Shown piece by piece: positions 40,781 to 61,898 of a stretch of 64,000 nt of DNA (the stretch's first letter is position 1; every line of letters starts with the position of its first letter). A program made the position numbers and the translations under genes. The notes beneath the pieces were generated by a model that had not been told where the DNA came from, did no database searches, and worked only from the letters and a program-made list of their open reading frames with translations. This stretch comes from Mesorhizobium sp. SOD10 (GTDB lineage Bacteria > Pseudomonadota > Alphaproteobacteria > Rhizobiales > Rhizobiaceae), in the NCBI GenBank assembly GCA_000824805.1, contig CCNA01000006.1:310001-374000 (forward strand), written 5' to 3'.

Positions 40781-40816
40781 AGGGATAGTCCCCTTGCCTT
40801 GTGTGAGGCTTGAATC
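40781..40816 (-). promoter_or_regulatory. Candidate Rem-type promoter of the motA operon
   Basis: Read on the minus strand: GATTCAAG, three bases, CACACAAG, exactly ten bases, then TATCCCT. The two CAAG-ending half-sites start 11 bp apart. It lies 33 bases upstream of motA and stands back to back with the DUF1217 promoter, only 14 bases away. The same layout occurs at four other operon heads in this window. Assignment to Rem is inference from PhoB-type site geometry. Confidence 0.6.
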
Positions 40817-40830
40817 GAAGGCAGCGGACG

Positions 40831-40866
40831 CGATTCAGCTTCGCGCAAGGAAGTGACGCTATCGTG
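40831..40866 (+). promoter_or_regulatory. Candidate Rem-type promoter of the DUF1217-flgF-fliI operon
   Basis: A weak upstream copy CGATTCAG (40831) is followed 11 bp later by CGCGCAAG (40842-40849), ten bases, then TATCGTG (40860-40866). It lies 30 bases upstream of the TTG start of the DUF1217 gene. The box agrees with those before flgB, fliF, flgE and motA. Confidence 0.6.
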
Positions 40867-40896
40867 CAGGGATAGCTTCGGCCGGAGGCATGCCCT

Positions 40897-42018
40897 TTGC
40901 TTAGTACCTATACCAGCTATCGGTTGATCGCCAAAGACATCCCCAAGTCTATCGCCCGCATCGAGCAGCAGCCGACGGTCGATCGCGACACCCAATACTA
41001 TCTGGCCAACATCACCAAGGTGAAATCGATCGACGATTTCGTCAACAACGACCGCCTGTTCAAATATGCCATGAAGGCCTACGGGCTGGAGGACATGGAC
41101 TATGCCAAGGCCTTCATGGTCAAGGCGCTGAAGGAAGGCGTCTCCGACCCCAACAGCTTCGCCAACAAGCTGACGGACAAGCGCTACGCCCAGTTCGTCA
41201 GCGCCTTCAACTTCGCGGCGGACGGCGCCGATGCGACGGTCTACAACCCGGCGCAGCAGCTGGTCACGAAGAACTACGCCATGCAGGCTGAGATCGCCGG
41301 TCTCGATCCGGATTCGGATTATGTGAAGGGCGAGACGACATACTATCTCGCCAACATCACCAAGGTGAAATCGGTCGACGATTTGATGTCGAACAATCGG
41401 CTGTACACCTACGCACTGGCCGCGTTCGGTCTCGACTCCGCCACCGAAGACAAAGACCTGATCAGGCAGGTCCTCGAGGGCGGCGTGCGCGACCCCGACA
41501 GCGTCGCCAACAAGCAGACCAACAAAGCCTATGCCGGACTGGCCGCGGCCCTCAATTTCGAGCAGTATGGCGAAAACGCCACCACCTACGTGCCGGCGCA
41601 GCAGCCGACCGTCGACAAATACCTGCGCCAGACATTGGAAGAGGACGCCGGCCAGACCAACGAGGGTGTTCGGCTGGCGCTCTATTTCCAGCGCAAGGCA
41701 CCCGACATCACCAGCTGGTACGACGTGCTGGCCGACACTGCACTTGCCAGCGTGGTGCGTACCGCGCTCGGCCTGCCGGATTCCTTCGCAACCGCCGACA
41801 TCGACAAGCAGGCGCAGTTGTTCGAGCAGAAGCTCGACATCAAGGACTTCACCGACCCGGACAAGCTCAGCAAATTCCTGACCCGCTTCACCAGCATGTA
41901 CGAGATTGCCCATCCGACCTCGACGGCGGTGACATCGGTCAGCGTGCTCTTCGCGCAACCGACCACTGTCGGCATCTCCACCGATCTGATGATGGCCATG
42001 CAGCAGTTGAAGTTCTGA
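40897..42018 (+). CDS. DUF1217-family flagellar-cluster protein (TTG start)
   Basis: A 373-residue protein of the DUF1217 family, found almost only in rhizobial flagellar loci. The start is TTG at 40897, preceded by GGAGG with an 8-base spacer. It contains repeated units: YYLANITKVKSIDDF (about residues 34-48), YYLANITKVKSVDDL (about 148-162) and a diverged third unit near APDITSWYDVLADTALAS. It has no signal peptide and is soluble. It leads the operon with flgF and fliI, 7 bases before flgF. Its function is not established. The position suggests a flagellar structural or export role. Confidence 0.85.
   Translation: MLSTYTSYRLIAKDIPKSIARIEQQPTVDRDTQYYLANITKVKSIDDFVNNDRLFKYAMKAYGLEDMDYAKAFMVKALKEGVSDPNSFANKLTDKRYAQFVSAFNFAADGADATVYNPAQQLVTKNYAMQAEIAGLDPDSDYVKGETTYYLANITKVKSVDDLMSNNRLYTYALAAFGLDSATEDKDLIRQVLEGGVRDPDSVANKQTNKAYAGLAAALNFEQYGENATTYVPAQQPTVDKYLRQTLEEDAGQTNEGVRLALYFQRKAPDITSWYDVLADTALASVVRTALGLPDSFATADIDKQAQLFEQKLDIKDFTDPDKLSKFLTRFTSMYEIAHPTSTAVTSVSVLFAQPTTVGISTDLMMAMQQLKF
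40996..41383 (+). repeat. Internal 43-base repeat in the DUF1217 gene
   Basis: Bases 40996-41038 and 41341-41383 agree at 41 of 43 positions and encode the same peptide motif (YYLANITKVKS). The third protein repeat is not conserved at the DNA level. Such identity points to recent duplication or gene conversion within the gene. Confidence 0.8.
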
Positions 42019-42025
42019 GAAGATC

Positions 42026-42748
42026 ATGCAGGACAGTCTTTACGTTGCCCTCTCCTCTCAGATCGCCCTCGAGCGTCGCCTCGACACCATCGCCGACAAC
42101 GTCGCTAACGCCTCGACCATCGGCTTTCGCGCCACCGGCGTGAAGTTCGAGGACGTGGTCTCGGGCACCGGGCCAAGATCGGTGTCCTTCGCCTCCTCCG
42201 GCAAGACCTATCTTTCCGGCGCGCATGGCGCTCTGACCGAAACCGGCAACCCGTTCGACTTCGCCATCCAGGGCGACGCATGGTTCGCCATCGAGACGCC
42301 CGCCGGCACGGTGATGACGCGCGATGGCCGCTTCTCCATGAACGAGAACGGCGAGCTGATGTCGATCGAAGGCTACCCGGTGCTGGATGGCGGCGGCGCT
42401 CCGATCCAGCTCGATCCGCGCAACGGCCCGCCCAAGGCAGGCGCCGACGGCTCGCTCAGGCAGAACGACCAATTGGTCGGCGCGATCGGCCTCTATAATT
42501 TCGACCCCGGCGAGAATTTCGTCCGCTATGGGAATTCGGGAATCGTTCCGGCGCGCACGCCCGAGCCCGTCACCGATCGCTCGGACGTCGGTGTCGCTCA
42601 AGGGTTCCTGGAAGAATCGAACGTCAACCCGGTGCTGGAAATGACCCGGCTGATCCAGGTGCAACGCGCTTTCGAGAACACGGCGGCGCTGATGCGGCAG
42701 ACCGATTCCTCCACCGACGACGCGATCAAGACGCTCGGCTCGAAGTGA
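42026..42748 (+). CDS. flgF: Flagellar proximal rod protein FlgF
   Basis: A 240-residue rod protein. The flagellar rod N-terminus (LYVALSSQIALERRLDTIADNVANASTIGF, read in two parts) and the C-terminal VQRAFENTAALMRQTDSSTDDAI motif are present. It follows the DUF1217 gene by 7 bases. Secreted through the flagellar export gate, it forms part of the proximal rod together with FlgB and FlgC. Confidence 0.93.
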   Translation: MQDSLYVALSSQIALERRLDTIADNVANASTIGFRATGVKFEDVVSGTGPRSVSFASSGKTYLSGAHGALTETGNPFDFAIQGDAWFAIETPAGTVMTRDGRFSMNENGELMSIEGYPVLDGGGAPIQLDPRNGPPKAGADGSLRQNDQLVGAIGLYNFDPGENFVRYGNSGIVPARTPEPVTDRSDVGVAQGFLEESNVNPVLEMTRLIQVQRAFENTAALMRQTDSSTDDAIKTLGSK

Positions 42749-42752
42749 CGGC

Positions 42753-44159
42753 ATGGCGACCGGATCGTCCCTGTTGCGCGCTGCCGAGAGCCTGGCGGAA
42801 ACCGGACGGACCGACAGGCTGGCCGCGCTCGAACGCGTCTGGCGGCGGTTCGACGATCCGCAGGCGCTGCTGGCGCGCGGCGGCCGCATCGCCGAGATAT
42901 CGCCGACGCATTACAAGGTTCGCGGCCTGTCCGGAATTGCCAGGCTGGGCGACATCGTCGAGCAGCGCGGCAAGGCCGGCGCGCGACGTGGCGAGATCGT
43001 CAAGATCTCCAGCGACGAGGTGGTGGTCGCGCCCTTCGAAGGCAGCGCCGATGCCGGCATCGGCGACGCCGTCTTCCGCCGCGGCCCGCTAACGGTCACC
43101 CCGCATACCTCCTGGCGCGGGCGCGCCATCGACGCCCTGACCCGGGTCATTGACGGCGGCCCGCCGCTGATCAGGCCGAATGCGGCCGAGGTCGCGCATG
43201 GCGCGACGCCCGGCGCCTTGTCGCGCCAGCGCGTCGGCACCGGTTTCCTCACCGGCGTGAGGGTGATCGACATCTTCACCCCGCTTTGCTTCGGCCAGCG
43301 GCTCGGCATCTTCGCCGGTTCCGGCGTCGGCAAGTCGACGCTGCTAGCCATGCTCGCCGGCGCCGAGGCTTTTGATACGGTGGTCGTGGCGCTGATCGGC
43401 GAGCGTGGCCGCGAGGTGCGCGAGTTCCTCGAGGATACGATCGGCGCCGAGAGCATGGCCAAGACCGTCGCCGTCGTCGCCACCAGCGACGAAAGCGCCA
43501 TGATGCGTCGCCGCGCGCCCGACACCGCCATGTGCGTGGCCGAGCACTTCCGCGACCAGGGCCATCGCGTGCTCCTGGTGCTGGATTCCATCACCCGTTT
43601 TGCGCATGCGCTGCGCGAGGTGGCGACCGGAACCGGCGAGCCGCCGGTCGCGCGCGGCTATCCGGCCTCGGTCTTCACCGACCTGCCGAAGCTGCTCGAA
43701 CGCGCCGGGCCTGGAGCCGAGGGGAAAGGTTCGATCACCGCCATCATTTCCGTGCTGGTGGACGGCGACGACCACAATGATCCGGTCGCCGATTCGGTGC
43801 GCGGCATTCTCGACGGCCATGTCGTGCTCGACCGAGCGCTCGCCGAGCAGGGCCGCTATCCGCCGGTCAATCCGCTGTCGTCGATCTCGCGCCTTGCCGA
43901 CAAGGCCTGGAGCGCCGAGCAGCGCATGCTGGTGACGAAGCTGAAATCGATGATCGCGCGCTTCGAGGACACGCGCGACATCCGCCTGCTGGGCGCTTAC
44001 CAGAGCGGCGCCGACGCCGAGCTCGACAATGCGGTGCGCCAGGTCCCGCTGATCTACGAGGCGCTCACGCAATCGCCGAGGGACCGCGCATCGGCCGATC
44101 CGTTCGCCGACCTCGCCCGCCATCTCAAGGGGAAGCTGAATGGCGATCAAGGAGACTGA
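42753..44159 (+). CDS. fliI: Flagellum-specific ATPase FliI
   Basis: A 468-residue ATPase that drives export substrates toward the flagellar gate. The Walker A motif is FAGSGVGKSTLL, and Walker B is in VLLVLDSITRFAHALREV. GERGREVREFLED and the ATPase-family ARGYPASVFTDLPKLLERAG are also present. It starts 4 bases after flgF and its end overlaps the next gene by 20 bases. FliH, its usual partner, is probably the fliH-like gene at 55646. A typical fliJ is not recognised next to it. Confidence 0.95.
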   Translation: MATGSSLLRAAESLAETGRTDRLAALERVWRRFDDPQALLARGGRIAEISPTHYKVRGLSGIARLGDIVEQRGKAGARRGEIVKISSDEVVVAPFEGSADAGIGDAVFRRGPLTVTPHTSWRGRAIDALTRVIDGGPPLIRPNAAEVAHGATPGALSRQRVGTGFLTGVRVIDIFTPLCFGQRLGIFAGSGVGKSTLLAMLAGAEAFDTVVVALIGERGREVREFLEDTIGAESMAKTVAVVATSDESAMMRRRAPDTAMCVAEHFRDQGHRVLLVLDSITRFAHALREVATGTGEPPVARGYPASVFTDLPKLLERAGPGAEGKGSITAIISVLVDGDDHNDPVADSVRGILDGHVVLDRALAEQGRYPPVNPLSSISRLADKAWSAEQRMLVTKLKSMIARFEDTRDIRLLGAYQSGADAELDNAVRQVPLIYEALTQSPRDRASADPFADLARHLKGKLNGDQGD

Positions 44160-44925
44160 GCTCCAATATACCGAGCGCATGTTGCGCGACAGGCTTGCCG
44201 AGGCCGAGGCGGCGGAGAGGGCCGAAGCCGACGCGGCAAGGACTGCCAAAGACAAGGCCGCGCATGCCAAGACACAAAAGACAGCGGCTCTCCTGACCAG
44301 AGCCGACAGGCCGCATCCGCGGACACCCACCGCTGGGACTGCCGATGTCGTGCAGGCCAGCCGCGATTCCTTGCTCGACGGGCTCTTTCCCCGCACCGAA
44401 TGGCCGGAGCCGCCGAAAGCCCAGTTCCCGCGCCTGGCCGACAGGAGCGCCGACCGCCGCAGCGATTTCGTCATCGCTGCGCTCGGCATCACGCTCGGCC
44501 TGATCTGCGCGTTGTTTCCCTGGTACATTTTCTTCAACCAGGAGCAGTTCGGCGTTCAGGCCATCAAGTTCGGCGGCAGCGGCAGCAATGCCGGGCGCGA
44601 GGGCGGCGGCGTCGTGGCCGAACGCAGCGGGCCGCTGACGGCCAAGGATGTTCCCAATGCCGATATCGACCTCTTTGCCACCGGAACGGTTGAGGACGAC
44701 CCCGCGCCGCCGCCCGGCGACCAGCCGTTTCCCGCCGCCGCTTCGGAATTCAAGATGGTGCATGTCGCCAACGGCCGCGCCATGATCGAGGACGATACCG
44801 GTCTGTGGCTCGTCCAACGCGGCTCGGTCCTGCCCGATTCCAGCCGCGTCGCCTCGATCGAGCAGCGCGGCGGCAAGTGGGTGATCGTCACCAGCACCGA
44901 CAAGGTAATCCAGCTCTCCAAGTAA
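44140..44925 (+). CDS. Single-pass membrane protein of the flagellar cluster, function unknown
   Basis: A 261-residue protein I cannot name. Residues 1-60 are charged and helical (RLAEAEAAERAEADAARTAK), likely a coiled coil. One membrane helix lies near residues 110-130 (FVIAALGITLGLICALFPWYIFF). The outer part is Gly/Pro-rich and ends in a compact domain (IEDDTGLWLVQRGSVLPDSSRV). Orientation should put the C-terminus in the periplasm. It overlaps fliI by 20 bases, at the position where fliJ often lies. It may be a fliJ-region rhizobial protein, but that is weak inference. Confidence 0.75.
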   Translation: MAIKETELQYTERMLRDRLAEAEAAERAEADAARTAKDKAAHAKTQKTAALLTRADRPHPRTPTAGTADVVQASRDSLLDGLFPRTEWPEPPKAQFPRLADRSADRRSDFVIAALGITLGLICALFPWYIFFNQEQFGVQAIKFGGSGSNAGREGGGVVAERSGPLTAKDVPNADIDLFATGTVEDDPAPPPGDQPFPAAASEFKMVHVANGRAMIEDDTGLWLVQRGSVLPDSSRVASIEQRGGKWVIVTSTDKVIQLSK

Positions 44926-44950
44926 TGGCGCCGGGCCATGCGGCCCGCCC

Positions 44951-44986
44951 CGCGCAAGGTCCGCGCAAGACTGGCCGCCTAGTCTT
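44951..44986 (+). promoter_or_regulatory. Candidate Rem-type promoter of the flgB operon
   Basis: Two identical CGCGCAAG boxes (44951-44958 and 44962-44969) start exactly 11 bp apart. Ten bases follow, then TAGTCTT (44980-44986). This is the clearest instance in the window. GCGCAAGACT and AGTCTTGTGC also form a near-perfect palindrome around the spacer. The flgB start codon is 24 bases downstream. Confidence 0.65.
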
Positions 44987-45010
44987 GTGCGTACTCGCCC
45001 GGGAGATTCC

Positions 45011-45391
45011 ATGGAACCCGTAAATCTTTTCGATCTCGCCACGCGGCAGTCGCAATGGCTGGCCGTGCGCCAGTCGGCGATTGCCTCCAACATCGCCAAT
45101 GCCAATACGCCGGGCTACACCGCCAACGACGTGGAGCCCTTCGAAAAGGTTCTCGACCGGACCGCAGTGACGCTTGCCGCCACGCAGGCCGGCCATCTCG
45201 GTGCCGAAACGGCCAATGCCGGCTTCAACGTCAAGCCGGAGGATCCTGAGGGCGCGATCATGCCGTCGAAGAACACCGTGGTTCTCGAACAGGAGCTGAT
45301 GAAGGCGGGCGAGGTCCGCCGCTCCTTCGAGCTCAACACGGCGATCGTCAAGGCCTTCCATTCGATGATGACGATGGTGGTGAAGAGCTGA
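45011..45391 (+). CDS. flgB: Flagellar proximal rod protein FlgB
   Basis: A 126-residue rod protein with the family start ([31 protein letters not shown], read in parts) and the C-terminal helix [22 protein letters not shown]. The ATG at 45011 follows GGGAG; the upstream in-frame ATG at 44987 is only one base past the -10 element and is rejected. It is the first gene of the long flgB-fliP operon and ends 2 bases before flgC. Confidence 0.93.
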
Positions 45392-45393
45392 CC

Positions 45394-45810
45394 ATGGACG
45401 CCCTCACCGCAGCCCTCAAAGTCGCGGCCTCCGGCCTTGGCGCCCAGTCGGAGCGCCTGCGCGTGGTCTCGGAAAACCTCGCCAACGCCCAGTCGACCGG
45501 CAGCACGCCGGGCGCAGATCCCTACCGCCGCAAGACGATCACCTTCCAGTCCGAGGTCGACCGCGCGACCGGCGGTTCGCTGGTGGAAGTCAGCGCGATC
45601 TCCCGCGATCCTTCGGACTTCCCGATCGAGTTCCAGCCCGGCAACGAAGCCGCCGACGACAAAGGGTACGTCAAGATGCCCAACGTCAACACGTTGGTCG
45701 AAATGGCCGACATGAGCGAGGCGAACCGCTCCTATGAAGCCAACCTGCAGGTCATCAAGCAGGCTCGCGATCTGATTTCCATGACCATCGACCTGATGAG
45801 GAACCAGTAA
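45394..45810 (+). CDS. flgC: Flagellar proximal rod protein FlgC
   Basis: A 138-residue rod protein. [29 protein letters not shown] at the start and the C-terminal [24 protein letters not shown] are the FlgC signatures. Its TAA overlaps the fliE ATG by one base. Length is normal. Confidence 0.95.
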
Positions 45811-46139
45811 TGATCGGCGGTATCGGGGCAATACAATTCAAGACGGCAGTCGATGGAGCGGAGCAGGCTTCACCGGGTCTGCTGCAGGGCGGCATCGGAA
45901 CGCAGGCAAGCGAAAGCGTCGGCAGCAGCTTCGCCGAAGTCCTCAGCCACGCCGCGACGAAAACGGTCAACACGCTGCAGAACGCCGAGCAGATGTCGAT
46001 CCAGGCGCTGAAGGGCGATGCAGACACGCGCCAGGTGGTCGATGCGGTGCTGAGCGCCCAGCAGGCGCTGCAGACCACCATCGCCATCCGCGACAAGGTC
46101 GTCTCGGCCTATCTCGAAATCAGTCGCATGAGTATCTAG
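45810..46139 (+). CDS. fliE: Flagellar hook-basal body protein FliE
   Basis: A 109-residue adaptor between the MS ring and the rod. The second half reads FAEVLSHAATKTVNTLQNAEQMSIQA and VVDAVLSAQQALQTTIAIRDKVVSAYLEI, the conserved FliE region. Its start overlaps flgC by one base, and it precedes flgG by 9 bases. Confidence 0.93.
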   Translation: MIGGIGAIQFKTAVDGAEQASPGLLQGGIGTQASESVGSSFAEVLSHAATKTVNTLQNAEQMSIQALKGDADTRQVVDAVLSAQQALQTTIAIRDKVVSAYLEISRMSI

Positions 46140-46148
46140 GACCGCGTC

Positions 46149-46937
46149 ATGAAAGCCCTTGCCATCGCCGCCACCGGCATGAACGCCCAGCAGACCAACC
46201 TGGAAGTCATCGCCAACAACATCGCCAACATCAACACCACCGGCTACAAGCGGGCGCGGGCCGAATTCTCCGACCTGCTCTACCAGGTCGACCGCACGCA
46301 GGGCGTGCCCAACCGCTCCAACACCTCGCTGGTGCCGGAAGGCGTCTCGATCGGTCTTGGCGTCAAGACGACGGCGGTGCGCAACGTTCACACGCAGGGC
46401 GAGCTGGCCAGCACCGGCAACAGTTTCGACCTGGCCTTGACCGGCAGGGGCTGGTTCCAGATCCAGGGAGCCGACGGCGGCACGCTCTACTCGCGCGCCG
46501 GCGCCTTCAACACCAACGCCACCGGGCAGCTGGTGACCGTCGACGGCGCCGAGGTCATTCCGGCCATCACCGTGCCGACCGACGCGGTTGAAGTCATCGT
46601 CAACAAGACCGGCCAGGTCTTTGCCCGCCTGGACGGTCAGACGAACTTGCAGTTGCTCGGCCAGCTTCAGATCGCCAACTTCGCCAACGAGGCGGGCCTG
46701 GCGCCGCTCGGCGACAACCTCTTCCAGGAGACGGCTGCCTCAGGCCCGGCCAATGTCGGCGTGCCTGGCGACCCCGGCTTCGCCACGATCCAGCAGGGCT
46801 ACCTCGAATCCTCCAACGTCGATCCGGTCAAGGAAATCACCGAGCTGATCTCGGCGCAGCGTGCCTACGAAATGAACTCCAAGGTCATCCAGGCCGCCGA
46901 CGACATGGCCTCGGTGGTCTCCAAGAACATCAGGTAA
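46149..46937 (+). CDS. flgG: Flagellar distal rod protein FlgG
   Basis: A 262-residue distal rod protein. The N-terminal [33 protein letters not shown], the G-specific extension [11 protein letters not shown] and the C-terminal [23 protein letters not shown] are all present. Length is standard. It is followed by flgA after 6 bases. Confidence 0.96.
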
Positions 46938-46943
46938 CGGACG

Positions 46944-47465
46944 ATGGCCGCCCCGATCTCCTCCGCACTTCGTCGCGCCGCGCTGGCCACCGTCCTGGTG
47001 ACCGCCGGCATGCCGGCTTTCGCGCAGGATACGGCCGGTCAATTGGCAAACCAGATCGCAGCCGGCCAGCCCGCCGGCGAGGCCGTGCTGATCCCCAACC
47101 GGGTCATCTATCCCGGCGAGACCATCGAGTTTGCCTCGCTCAAGCAGGTGACGCTCATCCCCGGCAAGCACAAGCCCGACGGCATGGCGACGCGCTCCGA
47201 GGAGCTTCAGGGCAAGGTCGCCAAGCGCACGCTTCTGCCCGGCCGCTACATCCCGGTCACCGCCATCCGCGACGCCTGGCTGGTCGAGCAGGGCGCTTCG
47301 GTGCAGGTCTATTTCACCGCCGGCGCGCTGACCATTTCGGCGGCCGGCGTCACGCTGCAACCCGGTGCTGCCGGCGACCAGATCAAGATCCGCAACATCG
47401 ACAGCGGCAAAATCATCTCGGGCACGGTGATGGCCGACGGCACCATCAAGGTCGGCGCTTCGTGA
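46944..47465 (+). CDS. flgA: Flagellar P-ring assembly chaperone FlgA
   Basis: A 173-residue periplasmic protein with a Sec signal peptide (cleavage after AFA, about residue 27). The SAF-type C-terminal domain has LLPGRYIPVTAIRDAWLVEQGASVQVYF, read in two parts. It helps FlgI assemble the P ring and lies directly before flgI, whose ATG overlaps its TGA. Confidence 0.93.
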   Translation: MAAPISSALRRAALATVLVTAGMPAFAQDTAGQLANQIAAGQPAGEAVLIPNRVIYPGETIEFASLKQVTLIPGKHKPDGMATRSEELQGKVAKRTLLPGRYIPVTAIRDAWLVEQGASVQVYFTAGALTISAAGVTLQPGAAGDQIKIRNIDSGKIISGTVMADGTIKVGAS

Positions 47466-48703: not shown

Positions 48704-48711
48704 GCACGCCG

Positions 48712-49317
48712 ATGATCGCGCTTCTTTCCTCGAAAACACGCCGTCCCTTCGTAATGATCGCCGCCGCGGCAGCGGCAGCACTTCTCGGCGGCGCTTCCGT
48801 TCGCGCTGAGGACGTTCGGCAGGTCCTGCCCGGCGGGCAGGCCCCTGTTCAGCCGGCCGAACTTACGCGCGAGAAGGAGCCGGTCCAGCCGGCTGCGCTC
48901 GCAGGCGGCAAGGCGCCGGACGAAAGCGAGATCCAGCGCTTCTGCTCCAACATTGCGGACGCCGCGCGCGATCGTCGCTACGCTCTTCAGGCCGAGGAAT
49001 TGAAGCAACTGCAAGCCGGCATCGACGAGCGCATGAAAGCGCTGGAGGCAAAGCGGGCCGAGTACGAGGAATGGCTGAAGCGCCGCGAAGTGTTCCTGGC
49101 GCGCGCCGAGGACGGCGTCGTCAAGATCTATGCCGGCATGAAGCCCGACGCCGCCGCCGAACGATTGGCGATGGTGAATGCCGAACTCGCGGCGGCCATC
49201 CTGATGAAGCTCGATTCGCGCAAGGCCGGCGTCATCCTGAACGAAATGGACCAGAAGGCGGCGGCGACGCTCACCGGCATTATGGCCAGCGCGGCGCGAA
49301 GGGTTGATCCGTCATGA
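48712..49317 (+). CDS. motE: MotC chaperone MotE
   Basis: A 201-residue exported protein of the rhizobial MotE family. A signal peptide ends near residue 32 (SVRA), followed by a Pro/Gln-rich linker. A coiled coil is seen around residues 85-125 (EELKQLQAGIDERMKALEAK), and the conserved region is KIYAGMKPDAAAERLAMVN through LDSRKAGVILNEM. In Sinorhizobium MotE stabilises MotC in the periplasm. motC is 9 kb downstream at 57681. Its end overlaps flgH in an ATGA junction. Confidence 0.9.
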   Translation: MIALLSSKTRRPFVMIAAAAAAALLGGASVRAEDVRQVLPGGQAPVQPAELTREKEPVQPAALAGGKAPDESEIQRFCSNIADAARDRRYALQAEELKQLQAGIDERMKALEAKRAEYEEWLKRREVFLARAEDGVVKIYAGMKPDAAAERLAMVNAELAAAILMKLDSRKAGVILNEMDQKAAATLTGIMASAARRVDPS

Positions 49318-50018: not shown

Positions 50019-50036
50019 GGCCGGGAGAGCGCTGCC

Positions 50037-51446: not shown

Positions 51447-51483
51447 GTAAAAAAAATCCGTGTAAAAATAGGTACGAGTAGCC

Positions 51484-52470: not shown

Positions 52471-52497
52471 TCGCTCTATACTGACCAGGCCAAAGCA

Positions 52498-52530
52498 TCG
52501 GGCCGCGCCAAAAGCGCGGCCCGATTTGCG
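52498..52530 (+). terminator. Rho-independent terminator after the first flagellin
   Basis: TCGGGCCGCGC, loop CAAAA, GCGCGGCCCGA: an 11-bp perfect GC-rich stem followed by TTTGCGTTT. It starts 28 bases after the flagellin stop. Confidence 0.88.
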
Positions 52531-52593
52531 TTTGCTCAAGGCCCGCGCAATCTTCGTTTCTTAACTTCTCGAAAGCCTACTTTTAACAGGCCA

Positions 52594-52621: not shown

Positions 52622-52734
52622 CCAATGACTTACGACAGGTTGCCGACTCGGCCCCGACCGGCGCGATCGCAACCGATGGGCAGGTCGAGACCCGGCCTGT
52701 GTGGCATGCCGGCTTTTGAGAAGGAGCGAGTTTC

Positions 52735-53805: not shown

Positions 53806-53830
53806 GCCGCCTGATCCCCATTGACCGACG

Positions 53831-53859
53831 AAAGGCCGCGTCTGAAGCGCGGCCTTTTT
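53831..53859 (+). terminator. Rho-independent terminator after the second flagellin
   Basis: AAAGGCCGCG, loop TCTGAAG, CGCGGCCTTT and a continuing TT: a 10-bp perfect stem with a T-tail, 26 bases after the stop codon. It separates the flagellins from the fliF operon. Confidence 0.9.
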
Positions 53860-53914
53860 GCGTCGGCGGGAAGAGGATAACCGTTCAACACTTAGCAGGC
53901 TCCTCGGCCGCAGG

Positions 53915-53950
53915 CCTATCATCCTCGCACAAGCTTCGCGGTCTAGTCTT
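53915..53950 (+). promoter_or_regulatory. Candidate Rem-type promoter of the fliF operon
   Basis: CGCACAAG (53926-53933), ten bases, then TAGTCTT (53944-53950). The upstream half-site 11 bp earlier (CCTATCAT) is poor, but the proximal box and -10 element match those before flgB almost exactly. The fliF start is 33 bases downstream. Brucella FtcR, the Rem orthologue, is known to act on fliF. Confidence 0.6.
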
Positions 53951-53983
53951 CTAGCGGACAGTCATGCTGGGAGCGGTTGAATC

Positions 53984-55642
53984 GTGCCGGAACAAATCCA
54001 GAGCATCATCGCGAATTTGAAGAGCTTCGGCGTGAGGCGTCTGGCGCTCATGGGCGGCATCGCGGCTCTGGTCATGGCCGTCATCGGCATCGCGTCCGTC
54101 TATCTCAACCGTCCGGCCTATGAGACGCTCTATGTCGGTCTCGAGCGTTCCGACGTCAACCAGATCGGCCTGGTGCTGGCCGATGCCGGCATCGGCTTCG
54201 ATGTCGGCTCCGACGGAACCTCGGTGCTGGTGCCGGCCGGCACCACCGCGCAGGCGCGCATGCTGCTTGCCGAGAAAGGCCTGCCGACCAGCGCCAATGC
54301 CGGCTACGAGCTGTTCGACAATGTGGGCTCGCTCGGCCTCACCTCCTTCATGCAGCAGATCACCCGCGTGCGCGCGCTGGAGGGCGAGATCGCGCGCACC
54401 ATCCAGTCGATTTCCGGCGTCAAGGCGGCGCGTGTCCACATCGTCATGTCCGAGCGCGCCAATTTCCGCCGCGACGAGCAGCAGCCCTCCGCCTCTGTGG
54501 TCATCCGCTATGCCGGCAACGATGCCGAGAAAAGCGCCATGTCGATCCGCCACCTCGTCGCCGCGGCCGTTCCGGGCCTCTCGGCCGACAAGGTCACGGT
54601 GCTCGATTCCAACGGCAACCTTTTAGCCGCCGGCGACGACCCGTCCAACACGAGCGCCGCGCGCACGCTCGGCATCGAGCAGACGGTCGAGGCACAGATC
54701 GGCGACAACATCCGCCGCGCGCTGACCCCCTATCTCGGCCCGGACAATTTCCGCGCCAGCGTCAAGGCGGACGTCAACACCGACAGTCGCCAGACCGAGG
54801 AGACGATCTTCGATCCGAACTCGCGCGTCGAGCGTTCGGTGCAATCGGTGAAGACCAACGAGGCGAGCAACCAGAAGCAGGCCTCGACCCCGACCAGCGT
54901 CGAGCAGAACCTGCCCGAGACGCAGACGACGACTACGGAGGGACCACAATCCTCCTCGCAGAACGATCGCAAGGAAGAGATCACCAACTACGAGATCAAC
55001 TCGAAGAAGATCGCGACCGTTTCGAACGGTTACACGGTCAACAAGATGTCGATCGCAGTCGTCGTGAACCAGGATCGCCTGAAGACCATCCTCGGCAAGG
55101 ACGCTACCCCGGAGCAGATTGCCAAGCGCGTCGCCGACATCCAGAAGATGGTCGCCTCGGCGACCGGCTTCGACGACAAGCGCGGCGACATCATCGACGT
55201 GTCTGCGGTCGAGTTCATCAACGGCCTCGACGGCGAGCCGATCGACCAGCCGGGCATCCTCGCCGCGATCGGCACCTATACCGGCACGCTGATCAATGCC
55301 GGCGCCTTCATCGTCGTGGTTTTCCTGGTGGCCTTCTTCGGCCTGAAGCCGATGGCTGCCGCGCTGACGGCGTCGTCGAAGCCCGCGGCCATTGCCGGCC
55401 CGAGCTTCGACGATGTGCAGCGATCCTTGCCGACGCCCGACGCGCCTATCGCCGCGATCGCCGCCGAAACTCCGGCCGGCGCGCTCCCCGGCGCACGCGC
55501 CGGCGCAACCCCGCTCGACGACCTGCGCCAGAAAATCCGGCCGGCGCCGCAGGAGCGGCTTGCCCGCATGGTCGACCTCAACGAGGAGCGCACCGCGCAG
55601 ATCCTGCGCAAATGGGCGGCTGCCCCGGAAGCCGTGGGTTAG
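53984..55642 (+). CDS. fliF: Flagellar MS-ring protein FliF (GTG start)
   Basis: A 552-residue MS-ring protein. The first membrane helix (LMGGIAALVMAVIGIASVYL) lies near residues 22-41, followed by the ring-building motifs (YETLYVGLERSDVNQI, VKAARVHIVMSERANFRRDE). The second helix (NAGAFIVVVFLVAFFGL) lies near residue 440. The C-terminal tail for FliG binding reads ERLARMVDLNEERTAQILRKW. In Sinorhizobium fliF lies before visN; here it stands between flagellins and motB. Start GTG at 53984 gives the family length. Confidence 0.95.
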   Translation: MPEQIQSIIANLKSFGVRRLALMGGIAALVMAVIGIASVYLNRPAYETLYVGLERSDVNQIGLVLADAGIGFDVGSDGTSVLVPAGTTAQARMLLAEKGLPTSANAGYELFDNVGSLGLTSFMQQITRVRALEGEIARTIQSISGVKAARVHIVMSERANFRRDEQQPSASVVIRYAGNDAEKSAMSIRHLVAAAVPGLSADKVTVLDSNGNLLAAGDDPSNTSAARTLGIEQTVEAQIGDNIRRALTPYLGPDNFRASVKADVNTDSRQTEETIFDPNSRVERSVQSVKTNEASNQKQASTPTSVEQNLPETQTTTTEGPQSSSQNDRKEEITNYEINSKKIATVSNGYTVNKMSIAVVVNQDRLKTILGKDATPEQIAKRVADIQKMVASATGFDDKRGDIIDVSAVEFINGLDGEPIDQPGILAAIGTYTGTLINAGAFIVVVFLVAFFGLKPMAAALTASSKPAAIAGPSFDDVQRSLPTPDAPIAAIAAETPAGALPGARAGATPLDDLRQKIRPAPQERLARMVDLNEERTAQILRKWAAAPEAVG

Positions 55643-55645
55643 GCC

Positions 55646-56275
55646 ATGGCTTCCGCAGCCCTTTTCGATCTCCTGCCCGATTTCGGATCGCGGACTCCGC
55701 ATGCCGGCCAGCCGCCGAAGGATCGGGGCGACGTCCAGCAAATGCCTGCGGCGCCGGCGCCGCAGGCCGATATCGGCGCGCTGATTGCCGAAGCGGTGGC
55801 CGACGCAGAGGCGGCGCTCGAGGCACGCCTTGCGCTTTCCCACCAGGCGGCGCTCGATGCCGAGCGCCAGGCCAATGACGAAGCGGCGAAAGCTTTCCTT
55901 GAAAGCTTCGGCGGCGATCTCGGCGCGGCCGTTGCCACGCGCATCGAAGCCATGGAGCAGCGTGTTGCCGAGCTTGCCGGCGCGACCATTGCCCGCATCG
56001 TCGGCGGCTTTCTCAGCGACGACCTGCGGCAACGTTCGCTGCAGGCCCTTTCGCAAGCCATCAGCGCCGCGGTCGCCGACAGCGAGGCCGTGCGTATCGG
56101 TGTCCGGGGGCCGCTCTCGCTGTTCGAGCCGCTAAAGGTGGCGCTCGGGTCCCGCGCCGCCAATCTCGACTTCACCGAGGCGCCGGGCTTCGACCTGACC
56201 GTCACAATCGACGAAACGGTGTTCGAGACGCGTATCGCCGAGTGGTCGGCGTGCTTGTCGGAGGTCCTGTCATGA
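55646..56275 (+). CDS. FliH-like flagellar export protein
   Basis: A 209-residue protein with an Ala/Glu-rich helical middle (IAEAVADAEAALEARLALSH, QANDEAAKAFLESFGGDLG) and a compact C-terminal region (VRIGVRGPLSLFEPLKVALG). This resembles the coiled-coil plus globular layout of FliH/YscL, the regulators of FliI. Similarity is by architecture rather than clear motifs. It starts 4 bases after fliF and overlaps motB by 4 bases. No other FliH candidate is seen in the window. Confidence 0.65.
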   Translation: MASAALFDLLPDFGSRTPHAGQPPKDRGDVQQMPAAPAPQADIGALIAEAVADAEAALEARLALSHQAALDAERQANDEAAKAFLESFGGDLGAAVATRIEAMEQRVAELAGATIARIVGGFLSDDLRQRSLQALSQAISAAVADSEAVRIGVRGPLSLFEPLKVALGSRAANLDFTEAPGFDLTVTIDETVFETRIAEWSACLSEVLS

Positions 56276-57684
56276 GCGCCGTCGACCATGCCAACCCTCG
56301 CCACGAGATCATCATCGTCAAGCGCAATCACGACGGTCATGACGACGGTCACCACGGTGGCGTGTGGAAGATCGCCTTCGCCGACTTCATGACGGCGATG
56401 ATGTGCTTCTTCCTCGTCATGTGGCTGATCAACGCCGCCAATGAGCAGACCAAGGCAGCCGTCGCCAGCTATTTCAATCCGGTCGAGCTGATCGACCGCA
56501 ACTCCAGCCGCAAGGGCCTGGAAGACCTGGGCGACGGCCCGAGCAAGGTCGGGCTGACCGCGGACAACCCGCAGCAGGGCGCGACCAAGGCCGGCGATGA
56601 CGGCAAAGGCGGCGCCGGCTCCTCCGAACGCCGCCAGACGAAGGACGGGGCGCAGGATGCCCAGCTCTCCGATGAGAAGCTGTTTGCCGATCCCTATGCT
56701 GTGCTGGCGGAGATCGCCGCCGATACGGGAGTGATGCAGAACGTCAGCGCCAAGGGCGAAGGCGGCGCCCAGACGGCCGGTCCGGCGACCGGCGCCTCCG
56801 GCGGCGAATCCTACCGCGATCCGTTCGCGCCGGATTTCTGGTCGCAGCAGGTGGCGGCGCCCGATGCCGAGGCAACCGCCGAGCGCGCCAAGATCGACGG
56901 TGATCCGGCCAAGCCCGGCGAGAAAATCGCCACCGCCGCGGCGCCGAAGGTAAAGGCCGTTCCGGCGGCGCCTCCGCTGACGGCCGCGCCGCTCGAAACG
57001 CTGGCAGCCGCGGAACAGGCCGACGCCAAGAGTGGGCAAAAAGCCGCGCAGGGCGTGTCCGAGAAGCCATCGAGTGAAGGTAGCAAGACCGACGAGGGCG
57101 GGAAAGCCGAAACCGACAAGCGCGAGGCCGCGGCCGGCGTCGTTAAGGCCGAGGCGGCGAAGACGGAAAAGATCGAAGAAGAGCAGACCGCCGACAAGGG
57201 CCACAAGACCCCGAGCAAAGCCGCCCTCCAGGAGGCGGCGGACATCAAGAAGGAACTCGCCAAGGCATTCCTGCCCGGCGAGAAGCTCGCCGACGGCGTC
57301 TCGGTCGAGGCCACCGACAAGGGTGTCGTCATTTCGATCACCGACCAGCTCGACTTCGGCATGTTCGAGATCGGCTCGGCCATGCCGCGCCGCGAGCTGG
57401 TGCTGGCGATGGAAAAGATCGGCCACATCATCAACCAGAAGAAGGGCACCATCACCATTAGCGGCCACACCGACGCGCGGCCGTTCCGCAGCGACACTTA
57501 CGACAACTGGCGGCTATCCACCGCGCGCGCCCATTCGGCCTACTACATGCTGGTGCGCGGCGGCGTCGACGAAAGCCGCATCACCGAGGTTGCCGGCTTC
57601 GCCGACCGGCAGCCCAAGATCGCTTCCGACCCGATGGCGGCCGCGAACCGGCGCATCGAAATCCTGATGACGGCCGGCGGATGA
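56272..57684 (+). CDS. motB: Flagellar motor stator protein MotB
   Basis: A 470-residue stator protein, much longer than enteric MotB. The plug and membrane region (VWKIAFADFMTAMMCFFLVM) contains the proton-carrying Asp before the helix. A 200-residue Ala/Lys/Glu-rich linker follows. The C-terminal OmpA-like peptidoglycan-binding domain has TISGHTDARPFRSDTYDNWRL, read in two parts, and FADRQPKI. I use the ATG at 56272, which overlaps the preceding stop by 4 bases. The partner MotA is at 39873. Confidence 0.95.
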   Translation: MSAVDHANPRHEIIIVKRNHDGHDDGHHGGVWKIAFADFMTAMMCFFLVMWLINAANEQTKAAVASYFNPVELIDRNSSRKGLEDLGDGPSKVGLTADNPQQGATKAGDDGKGGAGSSERRQTKDGAQDAQLSDEKLFADPYAVLAEIAADTGVMQNVSAKGEGGAQTAGPATGASGGESYRDPFAPDFWSQQVAAPDAEATAERAKIDGDPAKPGEKIATAAAPKVKAVPAAPPLTAAPLETLAAAEQADAKSGQKAAQGVSEKPSSEGSKTDEGGKAETDKREAAAGVVKAEAAKTEKIEEEQTADKGHKTPSKAALQEAADIKKELAKAFLPGEKLADGVSVEATDKGVVISITDQLDFGMFEIGSAMPRRELVLAMEKIGHIINQKKGTITISGHTDARPFRSDTYDNWRLSTARAHSAYYMLVRGGVDESRITEVAGFADRQPKIASDPMAAANRRIEILMTAGG

Positions 57685-59078
57685 AGGGCAGGAGCGCCAT
57701 CGGCGGCGCAATAGCGCTGCTATTGCTCGCGGCAGGGTCGCCCTCGGTCGCCTCCGCACAAGAGGCGCTGCAGCCCTATCAGCTGGTGCGTTCGCTGCAG
57801 CTGATCCAGGACCGAATTGCCGGCGGCGATCATGCCGCGCTGCCGATGCAGGCGAAGCTGCTCGAAATGATCGACGCCCGGATGCGCGATGCCAATGCCG
57901 AGGACTTCAAGGAACCGAAGAACTTTCGCGCCTTGCTGGTCTATGGCATGAGCGGCGGCAATCCGGTGACGGTCGCGGCGGCGGCTTCGCGCGCGATGAC
58001 CGACCCGCAAAGCCTGGCCATCGCCAAGGGCGTGGTCGCCTATCTGAACGGCCGGCCCGCCGAGGCCATCGAAACGCTGAAGCCGATCGATCCGATGAGC
58101 GTGCCCGCCGACATCGGCGCCTTCCTGGCGCTGGTCAAGGGCTCGCTGCTTGCAAGCGATGATCCTGTCCAGGCGCTCACCCTGCTCGACGAAGCGCGCC
58201 TGCTCAGCCCCGGCACCCTGGTCGAAGAGGCTGCACTCCGCCGCTCCGTCGGCATCGCGGCCGCGCAGGGCGACGCCACCCGTTTCGTGCTGGCCTCGAC
58301 CCAGTATGTCGCGTCCTACCTCTATTCGCCCTACGCCAGCCAGTTCGCCGATGCCTTTGTGTCCGGCGTCATCACGCTGCACATGGCGATCAGCCAGGAC
58401 AAGATCGCCGACATCACCTCGATGATGGATCCCGAGCGCGAGAAGGTGATCTACCTGCGCATCGCGCGCTACGCCGCGATCGACGGCATGACGGAGCTCT
58501 CGGCTTTCGCCTCGGCCAAGGCGGAGCTGGGCCGCGACGGCAACGGCAACCAGGACGACCCGCGTACCCAGCTCTATTCGAGCCTCTCGACCATGACGTC
58601 GGCCAATGTCGATGAGGTGCTTGCCAAGCTCGGCAAAATCGATCGCCGAAAGCTTTCGCAAGGCGACCGCGACCTGCTCGACGCCGCACAGGCTGTCGCA
58701 GGCGAAGTGATGGCGCCGGTGAAAGCGGCCGCCAATGCTGAAGCCGCACCGAAAACGCCTGCAAAGGATGACGAGGCGAAATCCGCGGCTGAGGCCTCTG
58801 CCAATCCGGCCAATGCGGACTTGCCTCCGGTGGAAGGAGCGATGCCCGACCCGGTCGCGGCGGCGCCCGCGGCTTCGCCGTCCCCCGCCCCGCAGCCGGC
58901 GCAAGCATCGGCTGAAACGCCGGCGTCCGCTCCGGCAAAGGCTGACGCCGCGCCGGTGGTGCAGGCATCCGCGCCGGCGAGAACGGCTGATGCGCAAGAC
59001 CCGATCGATGCGGCGGTGACCAGCACGCGCCATCAACTCGACCAGATCGACCAACTGCTCGGAGCAGCTCCCAAATGA
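57681..59078 (+). CDS. motC: Periplasmic motility protein MotC
   Basis: A 465-residue exported protein with a signal peptide (cleavage near residue 27, SVASA). The body is helical (YQLVRSLQLIQDRIAGGDHA, RALLVYGMSGGNPVTVAAAA), followed by a long Ala/Pro-rich tail. MotC is specific to rhizobia and relatives, binds MotB in the periplasm and is required for rotation. motE, its chaperone, is encoded in the flgB operon. Both ends overlap neighbours by 4 bases. Confidence 0.9.
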   Translation: MKGRSAIGGAIALLLLAAGSPSVASAQEALQPYQLVRSLQLIQDRIAGGDHAALPMQAKLLEMIDARMRDANAEDFKEPKNFRALLVYGMSGGNPVTVAAAASRAMTDPQSLAIAKGVVAYLNGRPAEAIETLKPIDPMSVPADIGAFLALVKGSLLASDDPVQALTLLDEARLLSPGTLVEEAALRRSVGIAAAQGDATRFVLASTQYVASYLYSPYASQFADAFVSGVITLHMAISQDKIADITSMMDPEREKVIYLRIARYAAIDGMTELSAFASAKAELGRDGNGNQDDPRTQLYSSLSTMTSANVDEVLAKLGKIDRRKLSQGDRDLLDAAQAVAGEVMAPVKAAANAEAAPKTPAKDDEAKSAAEASANPANADLPPVEGAMPDPVAAAPAASPSPAPQPAQASAETPASAPAKADAAPVVQASAPARTADAQDPIDAAVTSTRHQLDQIDQLLGAAPK

Positions 59079-60433
59079 CCAGCGTCAGCCAGACCTTGCC
59101 GGGCCTTGCTTCGACCCAGTCCCAGCCCCGGCAGCAAGCCGCGGGCGGTAAGGACAACGACCAGAATTTCGGCGAAATGGTTCACGGAACGGAAAAGCCC
59201 GATCGGCTGCGGGACAAGCCTGCGACCGGGCCGGTATTGCCGGACACGCATCCGGCAAGGCGTTTATCGGTCAACAAGCACGATCAGGAGCCGGACCAGG
59301 ACCCGCGGGATAAAACCGGCCCGCAGAGAGCAATGGCGGGAAAGTCCGCGAAGACCACCGCCCGGACCGATGAGCCGAAGTCGACGGCGGACAGAGATCC
59401 CACGGCGCAAGCCGACGATTCTGGACCGCTGCAGGATCGCCTGCCATTGCTGATGGCGCTGAGCGACATGAAGCATTTCGTGCAGTCGGGTGCCGGCGGC
59501 AAGGCTTCCTCCGGCGGTGAAGATGGCGCCGGCGAGCACGGATCGCTTGAATTGCCGTTGCGCCCGGGCAAGCGAGCGGCGGTCGACGGTTCCGGCGGGC
59601 CGCAGTCGCTATCCGGCCGTTCGGGGGCTGAAGATCACGGGCCTGACTTCGGGCAGAAGCCGGTGAAGGCGGACGTGGCTCTCGACATGCCGGGCCGCCC
59701 CGATGCCAAGATCCTATCGGCGCAAGGGAACGAACCGCAGGCCGACGGCCCGGTACCGCCGCAAGACTGGCGGCCGGCTTCCGTCTCCAAGGCCTCGCTG
59801 CAATCGCAGTCGGCCACACAGCAGACATCGGGCAAGCCTTCCGCCGCACGCTTGGAAGTCATCAGCCAACAGAGCTTCCCGGCGCCGCCGCAATACCCGA
59901 TCGGCCAGACGGCATCGGCACTGATTGAGGCCCTTGCCTCCGACAAAGGCGTTCAGCAGGCCTTCGCAAGCGCCTCGGCAGGCTCGCAGACGACCAATTC
60001 TGTTGCCGTTCCGACACACGTGCTGAAGATCGAACTCCACCCTTCGGAGCTCGGAGCGGTTACCGCCAGCCTGCGGCTCTCGGGCGAGCAACTTTCGATC
60101 GAGATGAAGCCCGAGACGCACGAGGCGTATCGCCGACTCACCGCCGACAGCGATGCCATCGTCAAATCCATGCGCAGCCTCGGCTTCGACGTCGACAGGG
60201 TTACGATCCTGCAACCTTCGATAGCAGCCCATGCAGCCAGCCGCACCGACGCGACGAGCGCCATGCCGATATCGGCAGGCCGCGACCAGCCTTCGTTCCA
60301 GCCCGGGAACTCGGGCGGCAACGGCGCGGGCGGCGACCGGCAACCGGGAAGGAACGAAGGCAATGGCGCACAGGAATTCGCGCGTGCCGCTTCGCCTCAT
60401 CGCGAGCGCGCTGGCGACGATATGTATATCTAG
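59075..60433 (+). CDS. fliK: Flagellar hook-length control protein FliK (formerly MotD)
   Basis: A 452-residue protein. Residues 1-300 are hydrophilic and low-complexity, as expected of an extended molecular ruler. The conserved C-terminal FliK domain is at about residues 310-390 (VLKIELHPSELGAVTASLRL, SIEMKPETHEAYRRL, MRSLGFDVDRVTI). In Sinorhizobium the gene at this place was first called motD and later shown to be FliK. It overlaps motC by 4 bases and the next gene by 71 bases. Confidence 0.88.
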   Translation: MTSVSQTLPGLASTQSQPRQQAAGGKDNDQNFGEMVHGTEKPDRLRDKPATGPVLPDTHPARRLSVNKHDQEPDQDPRDKTGPQRAMAGKSAKTTARTDEPKSTADRDPTAQADDSGPLQDRLPLLMALSDMKHFVQSGAGGKASSGGEDGAGEHGSLELPLRPGKRAAVDGSGGPQSLSGRSGAEDHGPDFGQKPVKADVALDMPGRPDAKILSAQGNEPQADGPVPPQDWRPASVSKASLQSQSATQQTSGKPSAARLEVISQQSFPAPPQYPIGQTASALIEALASDKGVQQAFASASAGSQTTNSVAVPTHVLKIELHPSELGAVTASLRLSGEQLSIEMKPETHEAYRRLTADSDAIVKSMRSLGFDVDRVTILQPSIAAHAASRTDATSAMPISAGRDQPSFQPGNSGGNGAGGDRQPGRNEGNGAQEFARAASPHRERAGDDMYI

Positions 60434-60953
60434 TTTCGCCGCCGGCGCGGCCAGCGCCGCCGCCAATCCTTGCGAGCCGGAGATCCTGCGCGCCGCCGAC
60501 CGCTACGGCGTGCCGGCCGGCATCCTTTACGCGGTCGGCCTGACCGAGACCGGGAAGAAGGGCAGCCTTCAGCCTAACGCCCTGAATATAGAAGGAAAGG
60601 CTGTGTTTCCGCGCAGCCGCGGCGAGGCGCTTGCCACGTTCGAGAATGCCCGTCGCGAGGGCAAGACGCTGATCGATTTCGGCTGCATGCAGATCAACCA
60701 TCGCTATCACGGCGCCCAGTTCCGCAGCGTCGAGGACATGCTCGACCCGCACCAGAATGTCGACTACGCGGCCCGCTTCCTGGCGAGCCTGCATGCCAGG
60801 CACATGACCTGGTCGATGGCCGTCGCCCGCTATCATGCCGGCCCCGACAACGACCCGGCGCAGAAGGTCTATGTCTGCCGCGTCATCGCCAACATGGTCG
60901 CCACCGGCTTTGGCAAATGGACCCCGAATGCCAGCGCCTTCTGCAACCAATAG
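60363..60953 (+). CDS. Lytic transglycosylase (SLT-type), flagellar cluster
   Basis: A 196-residue secreted muramidase-like protein. The signal peptide is residues 1-33 (ends SAAA). The SLT fold starts at PCEPEILRAADRYGVPAGIL and contains the catalytic Glu in GLTETG, then FGCMQINHRYHG and YAARFLASL. The ATG at 60363 lies inside fliK, overlapping it by 71 bases in another frame, after an AAGGAA ribosome site. It probably opens peptidoglycan for rod passage, since FlgJ with such a domain is not seen here. Confidence 0.88.
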   Translation: MAHRNSRVPLRLIASALATICISSFAAGAASAAANPCEPEILRAADRYGVPAGILYAVGLTETGKKGSLQPNALNIEGKAVFPRSRGEALATFENARREGKTLIDFGCMQINHRYHGAQFRSVEDMLDPHQNVDYAARFLASLHARHMTWSMAVARYHAGPDNDPAQKVYVCRVIANMVATGFGKWTPNASAFCNQ

Positions 60954-61173
60954 TTGCTTACCTTCAAACGCGCTCGACGCCGCCGGCATACGCTCCGGGC
61001 CAATATCGCCAGCTGGCAGTCCGGGACGAATACACCTGCACGGCCGCCTTTATTACGACCTCCAAAAAAACTCCCAAGAAAATAGCTACAAGAAATGATG
61101 GTTTTTCAGGATTCGCCGAGCCGAGTACCCCTTTCCGCACGGGGCAAGTGAATTTGATTCGGAGGGCGGGCCG

Positions 61174-61842
61174 ATGATCGTGATCGTTGACGAGCGAGAG
61201 CTCGTGACAGAGGGCTACTCTTCACTTTTCGATCGCGAGGGAGTGGCCACGGCCGGCTTCGCGCCAGGCGAATTCGGCGAATGGGTGAGTTCCGCCGCCG
61301 ACACCGATCTCAGGTCCGTCAGGGCCTTTCTCATCGGCGACTGCCGCGAGGGCGCGATATCGCCGCGCCAGATCCGCGACCGCACCGGCGCACCGGTGAT
61401 CGCGCTCAGCGAACAGCACTCGCTCGAACATACGCTGCGGCTGTTCGAAAGCGGCGTCGACGATGTCGTTCGCAAGCCTGTCCACATCCGCGAGATTCTC
61501 GCCCGCATCACCGCCATCCGCCGCCGCGGCTCCGAAGAAGCCGCCTACACTGAAGTCGGCTCGATGCGCATCTTCATGGACGGCCGCGATCCGGAGATCG
61601 ACGGCGAGCCGCTGCCGCTGCCGCGGCGCGAGCGGCGCATCCTGGAATATCTGGCCAGCAACCGCGGCCGGCGCGTGACCAAGACGCAGGTCTTCAACGC
61701 CATCTACGGCATCTTCGACGAAGAGGTCGAGGAGAACGTGGTGGAAAGCCACATCTCGAAGCTGCGCAAGAAGCTGCGTGAGAAGCTCGGCCACGACCCG
61801 ATCGATTCCAAGAGGTTCCTCGGCTACCGGCTGGTGTTTTGA
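61174..61842 (+). CDS. rem: OmpR/PhoB-type motility regulator Rem
   Basis: A 222-residue response regulator. The receiver domain keeps Asp6, Asp56, the Ser in IALSE and the Lys in RKPVH, although Asp-Asp at the start is reduced to Asp-Glu. The C-terminal winged helix reads [21 protein letters not shown] and [20 protein letters not shown]. It matches Rem of Sinorhizobium and FtcR of Brucella, the mid-level activator of flagellar genes, controlled there by VisN/VisR. No histidine kinase gene is near. A GGAGG ribosome site precedes the start. It lies in a 220-base gap without the shared promoter motif. Confidence 0.92.
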
Positions 61843-61862
61843 TGGCCGCCCGCGGCACGTCC

Positions 61863-61898
61863 CGCGCCAGCCTCGCGCAAGACACCAGGCATAGTTTC
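61863..61898 (+). promoter_or_regulatory. Candidate Rem-type promoter of the flgE operon
   Basis: CGCGCCAG (61863-61870) and CGCGCAAG (61874-61881) start 11 bp apart. They are followed by ten bases and TAGTTTC (61892-61898). The flgE ATG is 35 bases downstream. Together with the flgB site this is the best evidence for a tandem half-site. Confidence 0.63.

Follow-up and report, generated by a model that had tools for sequence, protein, structure and literature searches.

The structural flagellar operons of Mesorhizobium sp. SOD10 – five of which lie in a 64,000-nt stretch of contig CCNA01000006.1 (assembly GCA_000824805.1; hereafter, the window) – share an upstream element made of a tandem repeat with an 11-bp period, nCAKYYTCRCRCAAG, placed exactly 10 bp before a −10-type hexamer, TAnnnT. 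Comparison of sequences makes it very probable that this element serves as the operator/promoter of Rem, an OmpR-family regulator with counterparts in LafR of Bradyrhizobium and FtcR of Brucella, and that it acts as a PhoB-like activator site in place of a −35 element. An earlier note on this DNA had described a shorter motif, CGCRCAAG-N10-TAKYYT, as a promoter common to the five operons and taken it to mark an intermediate regulatory class.

The element and its specificity

The five sites are found where the earlier note had placed them, each with CRCRCAAG, then exactly 10 bases, then a −10 hexamer. They were scored with a profile of 42 columns, R1, trained on 52 fliF and flgE sites from other species only, both within the window and across the source genome (6.5 Mb in 61 contigs).

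40780..40821, minus strand: element before motA, TTCAAGCCTCACACAAG, with TTCAAG and CACAAG as half-sites at a distance of 11 bp; box 40798-40816, −10 TATCCC 40782-40787; window score 19.6, 14.3 bits genome-wide
40826..40867, plus strand: element before the DUF1217 gene (orf38-type), TTCAGCTTCGCGCAAG; box 40831-40849, −10 TATCGT 40860-40865; window score 21.0, 14.6 bits genome-wide
44946..44987, plus strand: element before flgB, 11-bp direct repeat CGCGCAAGGTCCGCGCAAG; box 44951-44969, −10 TAGTCT 44980-44985; 20.2 bits, genome rank 3, with the gene held out of the profile
53910..53951, plus strand: element before fliF, ATCATCCTCGCACAAG; box 53915-53933, −10 TAGTCT 53944-53949; 27.9 bits genome-wide
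61858..61899, plus strand: element before flgE, CGCGCCAGCCTCGCGCAAG; box 61863-61881, −10 TAGTTT 61892-61897; 28.8 bits genome-wide

The flgB, fliF and flgE sites fit CRCRCAAG-N10-TAKYYT exactly, and those of motA and the DUF1217 gene depart from it by one mismatch each, in the hexamers TATCCC and TATCGT. Counted from the end of the hexamer, the start codons lie 26-36 nt downstream, close to the 24-35 nt given before; this takes flgB to begin at ATG 45012, 26 nt from its hexamer, which is probably the true start rather than GTG 44987.

Within the window, the short motif is indeed commoner than chance would allow, with 15 matches at up to two mismatches against a mean of 5.78 in shuffled sequence and none of 100 shuffles reaching 15. 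Across the genome, by contrast, the bare pattern at up to one mismatch shows no enrichment (38 matches, against 45 for a reversed-pattern control) and was dropped as a genome-wide search tool in favour of the profile; its exact matches in the 6.5 Mb number four, three of them before flgB, fliF and flgE. The earlier note had named random occurrence throughout the genome as grounds for rejecting the motif; run on the bare pattern, that test would have misled: bare CGCRCAAG-N10-TAKYYT is not specific genome-wide, and the full element is.

In the window, the five sites hold ranks 1-5 with scores of 19.6-37.6, all above the maxima of 200 column-permuted profiles run on both strands, the largest of which is 16.3. 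Genome-wide, the top six hits are flgE (28.8 bits), fliF (27.9), flgB (20.2), flhA (16.3), DUF1217 (14.6) and motA (14.3), four of which – flgB, flhA, DUF1217 and motA – were held out of training; the next six reach at most 13.4 bits and are partial matches of 18-21 positions. The set of five operons described earlier stands in full but is too small: it has to be extended by flhA outside the window, by a weak site before the flagellin gene flaB and by flagellin sites in other families. The flhA element lies at C6:389779 (positions 16779-16849 of locus L233), with the flhA frame starting about 43 nt downstream, and matches in a similar position before flhA recur in each of the other four members of the genus that were searched, as well as in genome G148 (at about 180 nt) and in genomes G082 and G112 of family f2.

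Association with rem

The proposed ligand of the box is encoded within the same cluster, between the fliF operon and flgE.

61174..61842, plus strand: rem, an OmpR-family regulator with a receiver and a winged-helix DNA-binding domain

The name rem is taken over from the earlier note and the literature. Pfam recognises Trans_reg_C and, at 31.3 bits against a cut-off of 30.2, Response_reg; the best match among solved structures is RegX3, and the PhoB DNA-binding domain is also among the matches. Read by eye, the RegX3 alignment shows Rem with Arg where the phospho-acceptor would stand, which agrees with the substitutions at key aspartates reported for Rem (PMC9812332). The protein is 100% identical to Rem of M. 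plurifarium STM8773 and 75-99% identical to that of the other 79 in a sample of 80 named rem loci, which come mostly from Mesorhizobium and near relatives; the closest are from Mesorhizobium.

Across genomes, the box follows rem. Two samples were searched: an order sample of 199 genomes, divided by a Rem match above 160 bits into 54 Rem+ and 145 Rem−, and a family sample of 121 genomes from 106 genera (101 Rem+, 20 Rem−). In the order sample, R1 finds matches at E ≤ 0.01 in 34/54 Rem+ but only 6/145 Rem− genomes (Fisher 2e-18), a difference that persists when only flhA-bearing genomes are counted (32/51 against 5/108; 3e-15). In the family sample, the figures are 75/101 against 0/20 at E ≤ 0.005 (2e-10) and 93/101 against 4/20 at E ≤ 0.05, all of these statistics treating as separate draws species that are not independent. 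In the order sample, 48 of the 61 matches in Rem+ genomes are no more than 40 kb away from rem or a listed flhA; of the six matches in Rem− genomes, one is. Of the best 100 family matches (G000 and G064 left out), 81 are within 50 kb of rem, 17 are on another contig and two are farther away. Among 20 matches that lie away from rem or on a different contig, two stand before motA, two before DUF1217 or fliF, and five before an uncharacterised protein family described below; Pfam confirmed one of the motA genes, and the other three flagellar genes were identified by eye.

Nine Rem+ genomes have two listed flhA places; seven of them carry matches at E ≤ 0.01, and all 13 of these matches are at the rem-linked locus. 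The seven (G135, G198, G108, G159, G163, G130 and G032) come from three families, and the pattern is that of lateral versus polar flagella.

Such association cannot by itself name the binder, and the box might instead belong to VisNR or to some other regulator (CtrA or MucR, for example), rem merely accompanying the same flagellar system. The box, however, consists of 11-bp direct repeats of CAAG, unlike the inverted repeats usual for LuxR-type regulators and the TTAA-N7-TTAA of CtrA, and no CtrA box was seen by eye in the columns of the 52 aligned sites. VisN matches of at least 83 bits occur in 7/199 genomes; of the 34 Rem+ genomes of the order sample that have box matches, 27 lack one, a count from a single-sequence query that may miss divergent VisN. 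In favour of this alternative, VisNR does control these genes in S. meliloti and R. leguminosarum, there acting through rem (PMC8429497). We regard it as improbable, and Rem as the far better candidate.

Architecture and constraint

The earlier description of the motif as a shared promoter-type signal is strongly supported, but the conserved element is longer than described, and its tandem repeat suggests an OmpR/PhoB-type activator site that stands in for the −35 rather than a −35 element proper. The second, upstream half-site is clear at flgB, flgE and motA, and weaker at DUF1217 (TTCAG) and fliF (ATCAT). To avoid circularity, it was examined in sites picked on box and −10 alone from the 51 motA, DUF1217 and flgB upstreams of 41 rem neighbourhoods, of which 34 gave a site above 95% of background (14 of the 34 from the window's own genus). 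In those 34 sites, upstream column 12 is A in 97% and column 13 is G in 100%, where the commonest background base reaches 37% each, and self-identity of the box peaks at offset 11 (0.69, against a background of 0.25). Outside the genus alone, 20 sites from 36 upstreams give A in 19/20, G in 20/20 and an offset-11 identity of 0.64.

Spacing is equally regular. Among the named loci, the box is followed by TAnnnT at a spacing of 10 in 71/71 fliF upstreams, and by TA at that spacing in 73/73 flgE upstreams (full TAnnnT in 72), a count that leaves out locus L179, likewise omitted from the model. The box itself is found in all 78 named flgE upstreams, including L179, where it was read by eye, and four in which it is displaced. 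The layout throughout is that of OmpR/PhoB-type sites, with a direct repeat of about 11 bp whose last copy ends about 10 bp before the −10, and no separate −35.

Fixed spacing to a −10-like hexamer is also what an alternative sigma factor would impose, were box and hexamer its −35/−10 pair. Yet a −35 could not sit as near to the −10 as CAAG does, with only 10 bp between them; the hexamer itself is an ordinary TAnnnT; and a second half-site lies 11 bp further up. Sigma28 promoters read TAAA-N15-GCCGATAA and sigma54 promoters GG-N10-GC; neither was seen when the columns of the 52 aligned sites were compared with these consensuses by eye, and a sigma-factor pair is very unlikely. Least likely of all is that the conservation reflects shared descent alone, or a leader-RNA element rather than a promoter: the named loci do come mostly from Mesorhizobium and its near relatives, but the half-site and box hold 1.8-2.0 bits per base and the T, A, T of the −10 1.9-2.0 bits, while the spacer (0.6-1.2 bits) and the flanks (0.2 bits in the 34 bp above, 0.5-0.6 below) have drifted, non-homologous promoters share the box, and in four flgE loci an insert between promoter and gene has moved box and −10 together to 159-222 nt upstream, never parting the one from the other.

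At flgB, the site also lies within a near-palindrome, CGCGCAAGACTGGCCGCCTAGTCTTGTGCG (window 44962-44991). The inverted copy (44968-44991, minus strand) scores only 6.6 bits and was treated as incidental; among the five genus members compared, only the window's genome has the inverted arm in full, G096 has part of it, and none can be seen in G064, G189 and G123.

Rem as the probable activator

PhoB binds pho boxes that are head-to-tail repeats with an 11-bp period, about 10 bp before the −10 and in place of a −35. The box described here has the same repeat period and placement, but differs in its half-site, CAAG rather than TGTCA, and in a regulator that carries Arg at the phospho-acceptor place. 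We infer that Rem most likely binds as a head-to-tail dimer on half-sites 11 bp apart (nCAK..., CGCAAG). With exactly 10 bp between the end of the second half-site and a −10 of sigma70 type, the pair would cover the place of the missing −35; if the T of TAnnnT is −12, the half-sites would lie near −36 and −25. Like PhoB at its pho boxes, the dimer would then bring sigma70 polymerase to each of the six operons, and in this Mesorhizobium the motor/C-ring, rod, MS-ring, hook and export operons would be switched on together.

Several observations weigh against this reading. Within the source genome, motA and DUF1217 take ranks 5-6 at E 0.23-0.29, narrowly above noise (13.4 bits). Outside the genus, sites above 99% of background are found before flgB in 9/15, flgE in 9/23, fliF in 7/17 and DUF1217 in 1/10; although these genes and motA head their operons in Mesorhizobium, they may not do so in other genera. 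Some Rem+ genomes lack matches: 8/101 in the family sample at E ≤ 0.05 and 20/54 in the order sample at E ≤ 0.01, including two with two flhA genes, G178 and G197. The reverse also occurs, with weak matches (E 0.009-0.04) in 4/20 Rem− family genomes and one about 13 kb from flhA in Rem− G184. As for location, 13/61 matches in Rem+ genomes are separated from rem and the listed flhA by over 40 kb or by a contig boundary, and six weaker matches (E 0.014-0.039) are found elsewhere in the seven genomes with two flhA genes, none of them within 40 kb of the second flhA. Finally, the motif reported for FtcR from chromatin immunoprecipitation sequencing (ChIP-seq), TGTGGGCA, is unlike this box (PMC9456535).

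Reach of the box

In rem-neighbourhood regions (41 in all, resting on 40/57 Rem matches of other genomes), a site above 99% of background precedes motA in 14/16, and in 9/11 of those outside the genus.

The earlier note had found the box missing before visN, rem and both flagellins. This stands for visN, rem and flaA, where window scores are −12.9 to −15.7, and fails for flaB, which has a degenerate copy. Before rem, the box is absent from all 41 rem-neighbourhood regions, as expected if rem stands higher in the cascade.

52528-52569, plus strand: degenerate copy before flaB, CTCAAGGCCCGCGCAAT-N10-TAACTT (also given as CGCGCAAT, TAACTT), 165 nt before the start codon

The flaB copy scores 10.6, a value rivalled by chance – 27/200 permuted profiles also reach 9.8 – so its conservation in the genus counts rather than its score. 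A scoring copy is present in 23/52 flaB-type upstreams of the named loci and in 2/77 flaA-type upstreams, both from Aminobacter. Outside the genus, a scoring site lies 120-165 nt before the flagellin start in 8/17 regions, mostly without the first T of the −10; there, the flaA/flaB labels are approximate, and FlaA picks made with tblastn are unreliable at contig edges and for paralogues. A shared promoter-type signal for a Rem-controlled class II set – the intermediate class of the earlier note – is strongly supported, but its boundary with the flagellins is not clean.

The flagellin upstreams have features of their own: TTAACCAT-like repeats at L160, L193, L208, L211 and other loci, and AT-rich TATATTTTCGATTAACC stretches in Mesorhizobium. 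Both are perhaps CtrA-type sites for the late class.

A further candidate target came from outside the flagellar cluster. A protein family of about 215 amino acids, with no Pfam match in the two members scanned, occurs in 11/121 family genomes from 10 genera (L258-L268). In all 11, a Rem-box-like site lies 66-147 nt before the match to this family, with best scores of 12.8-25.9 in ten and 4.0 in one, and in 9/11 the site begins at its left edge with TAAC. Because it was the profile that led to the family – five members were themselves hits and a sixth (G265) was in the hit list – only the other five serve as a test, scoring 4.0, 12.8, 17.1, 20.7 and 22.0. It has no match in the window's own genome and is a candidate new Rem target.

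These observations allow a bolder suggestion, one that we hold tentatively and lean away from rather than towards: the box might be an ancestral Rem/LafR/FtcR operator code across much of the order, reaching beyond class II. It would then drive flagellins from about 120-165 nt upstream in several families, with late (class III) timing imposed after transcription on the long leader – for instance, by FlbT – instead of by a separate promoter class, and would also serve the family of about 215 amino acids in ten genera.

Relation to known flagellar systems

We take the orf38 of other rhizobia to be the DUF1217 gene. On that footing, the VisNR-Rem cascade of S. meliloti and R. leguminosarum involves the same regulator family and the same targets, namely orf38, fliM and the assembly and motor genes, and Rem is reported there to activate class II genes directly (PMC8429497, PMC9812332). 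What differs here is that the site itself is defined by comparison, and that flhA, the weak flaB site and the family of about 215 amino acids are added. Rem-controlled class II promoters are already known, and the present site was not found in the literature searched; nor was any Rem-binding consensus, in a search that did not cover the primary Rem paper (Rotter 2006).

LafR, the Rem homologue of Bradyrhizobium diazoefficiens, is reported to control lateral but not polar flagella (PMC8429497), and the 13/13 matches at E ≤ 0.01 at the rem-linked flhA locus in seven genomes likewise single out one of two flagellar systems. FtcR of Brucella melitensis is an OmpR-type flagellar regulator reported to act on fliF (PMC9456535).

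In many Alphaproteobacteria that live with plants or animals, proteins of the Rem/LafR/FtcR type are master regulators of the flagellum. Once tested, a consensus for their site would make it possible to list the regulon of any sequenced genome and, where there are two flagellar systems, to tell which one Rem controls; it would also call the reported FtcR ChIP motif into question, and it yields single-base predictions for binding and reporter tests.

Genes of the window

The genes behind the five elements, whose first members (motA, DUF1217, a flgB-type rod gene, fliF and flgE) were assigned by Pfam, are arranged as follows; the LuxR-type frames, which lie further upstream than rem, were also recognised by Pfam and owe their names to the earlier note.

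34279..35813, plus strand: two LuxR-type (GerE) reading frames, visN/visR-like, with no box upstream
39873..40748, minus strand: motA, first gene of a minus-strand run
38900-39838, 37417-38439 and 36310-37392, minus strand: FliM/FliN-domain gene, fliG and flhB, continuing the run after motA
40897..42018, plus strand: DUF1217 gene, followed by flgF-type (42026-42748) and fliI-type (42753-44159) genes
45012..45391, plus strand: flgB, followed by flgC, fliE, flgG and flgA
53984..55642, plus strand: fliF, with a MotB-domain gene (56242-57684) and a FliK-domain gene (59075-60433) downstream
61934..63190, plus strand: flgE

Inside the 3′ end of flhB, the window holds one more match to the profile (36393-36434, minus strand), with a plain profile score of 14.8 – below the largest permuted-profile maximum of 16.3 – and 5.1 bits in cmsearch; it lies about 100 nt before an open reading frame of 145 amino acids (35855-36292, minus strand).

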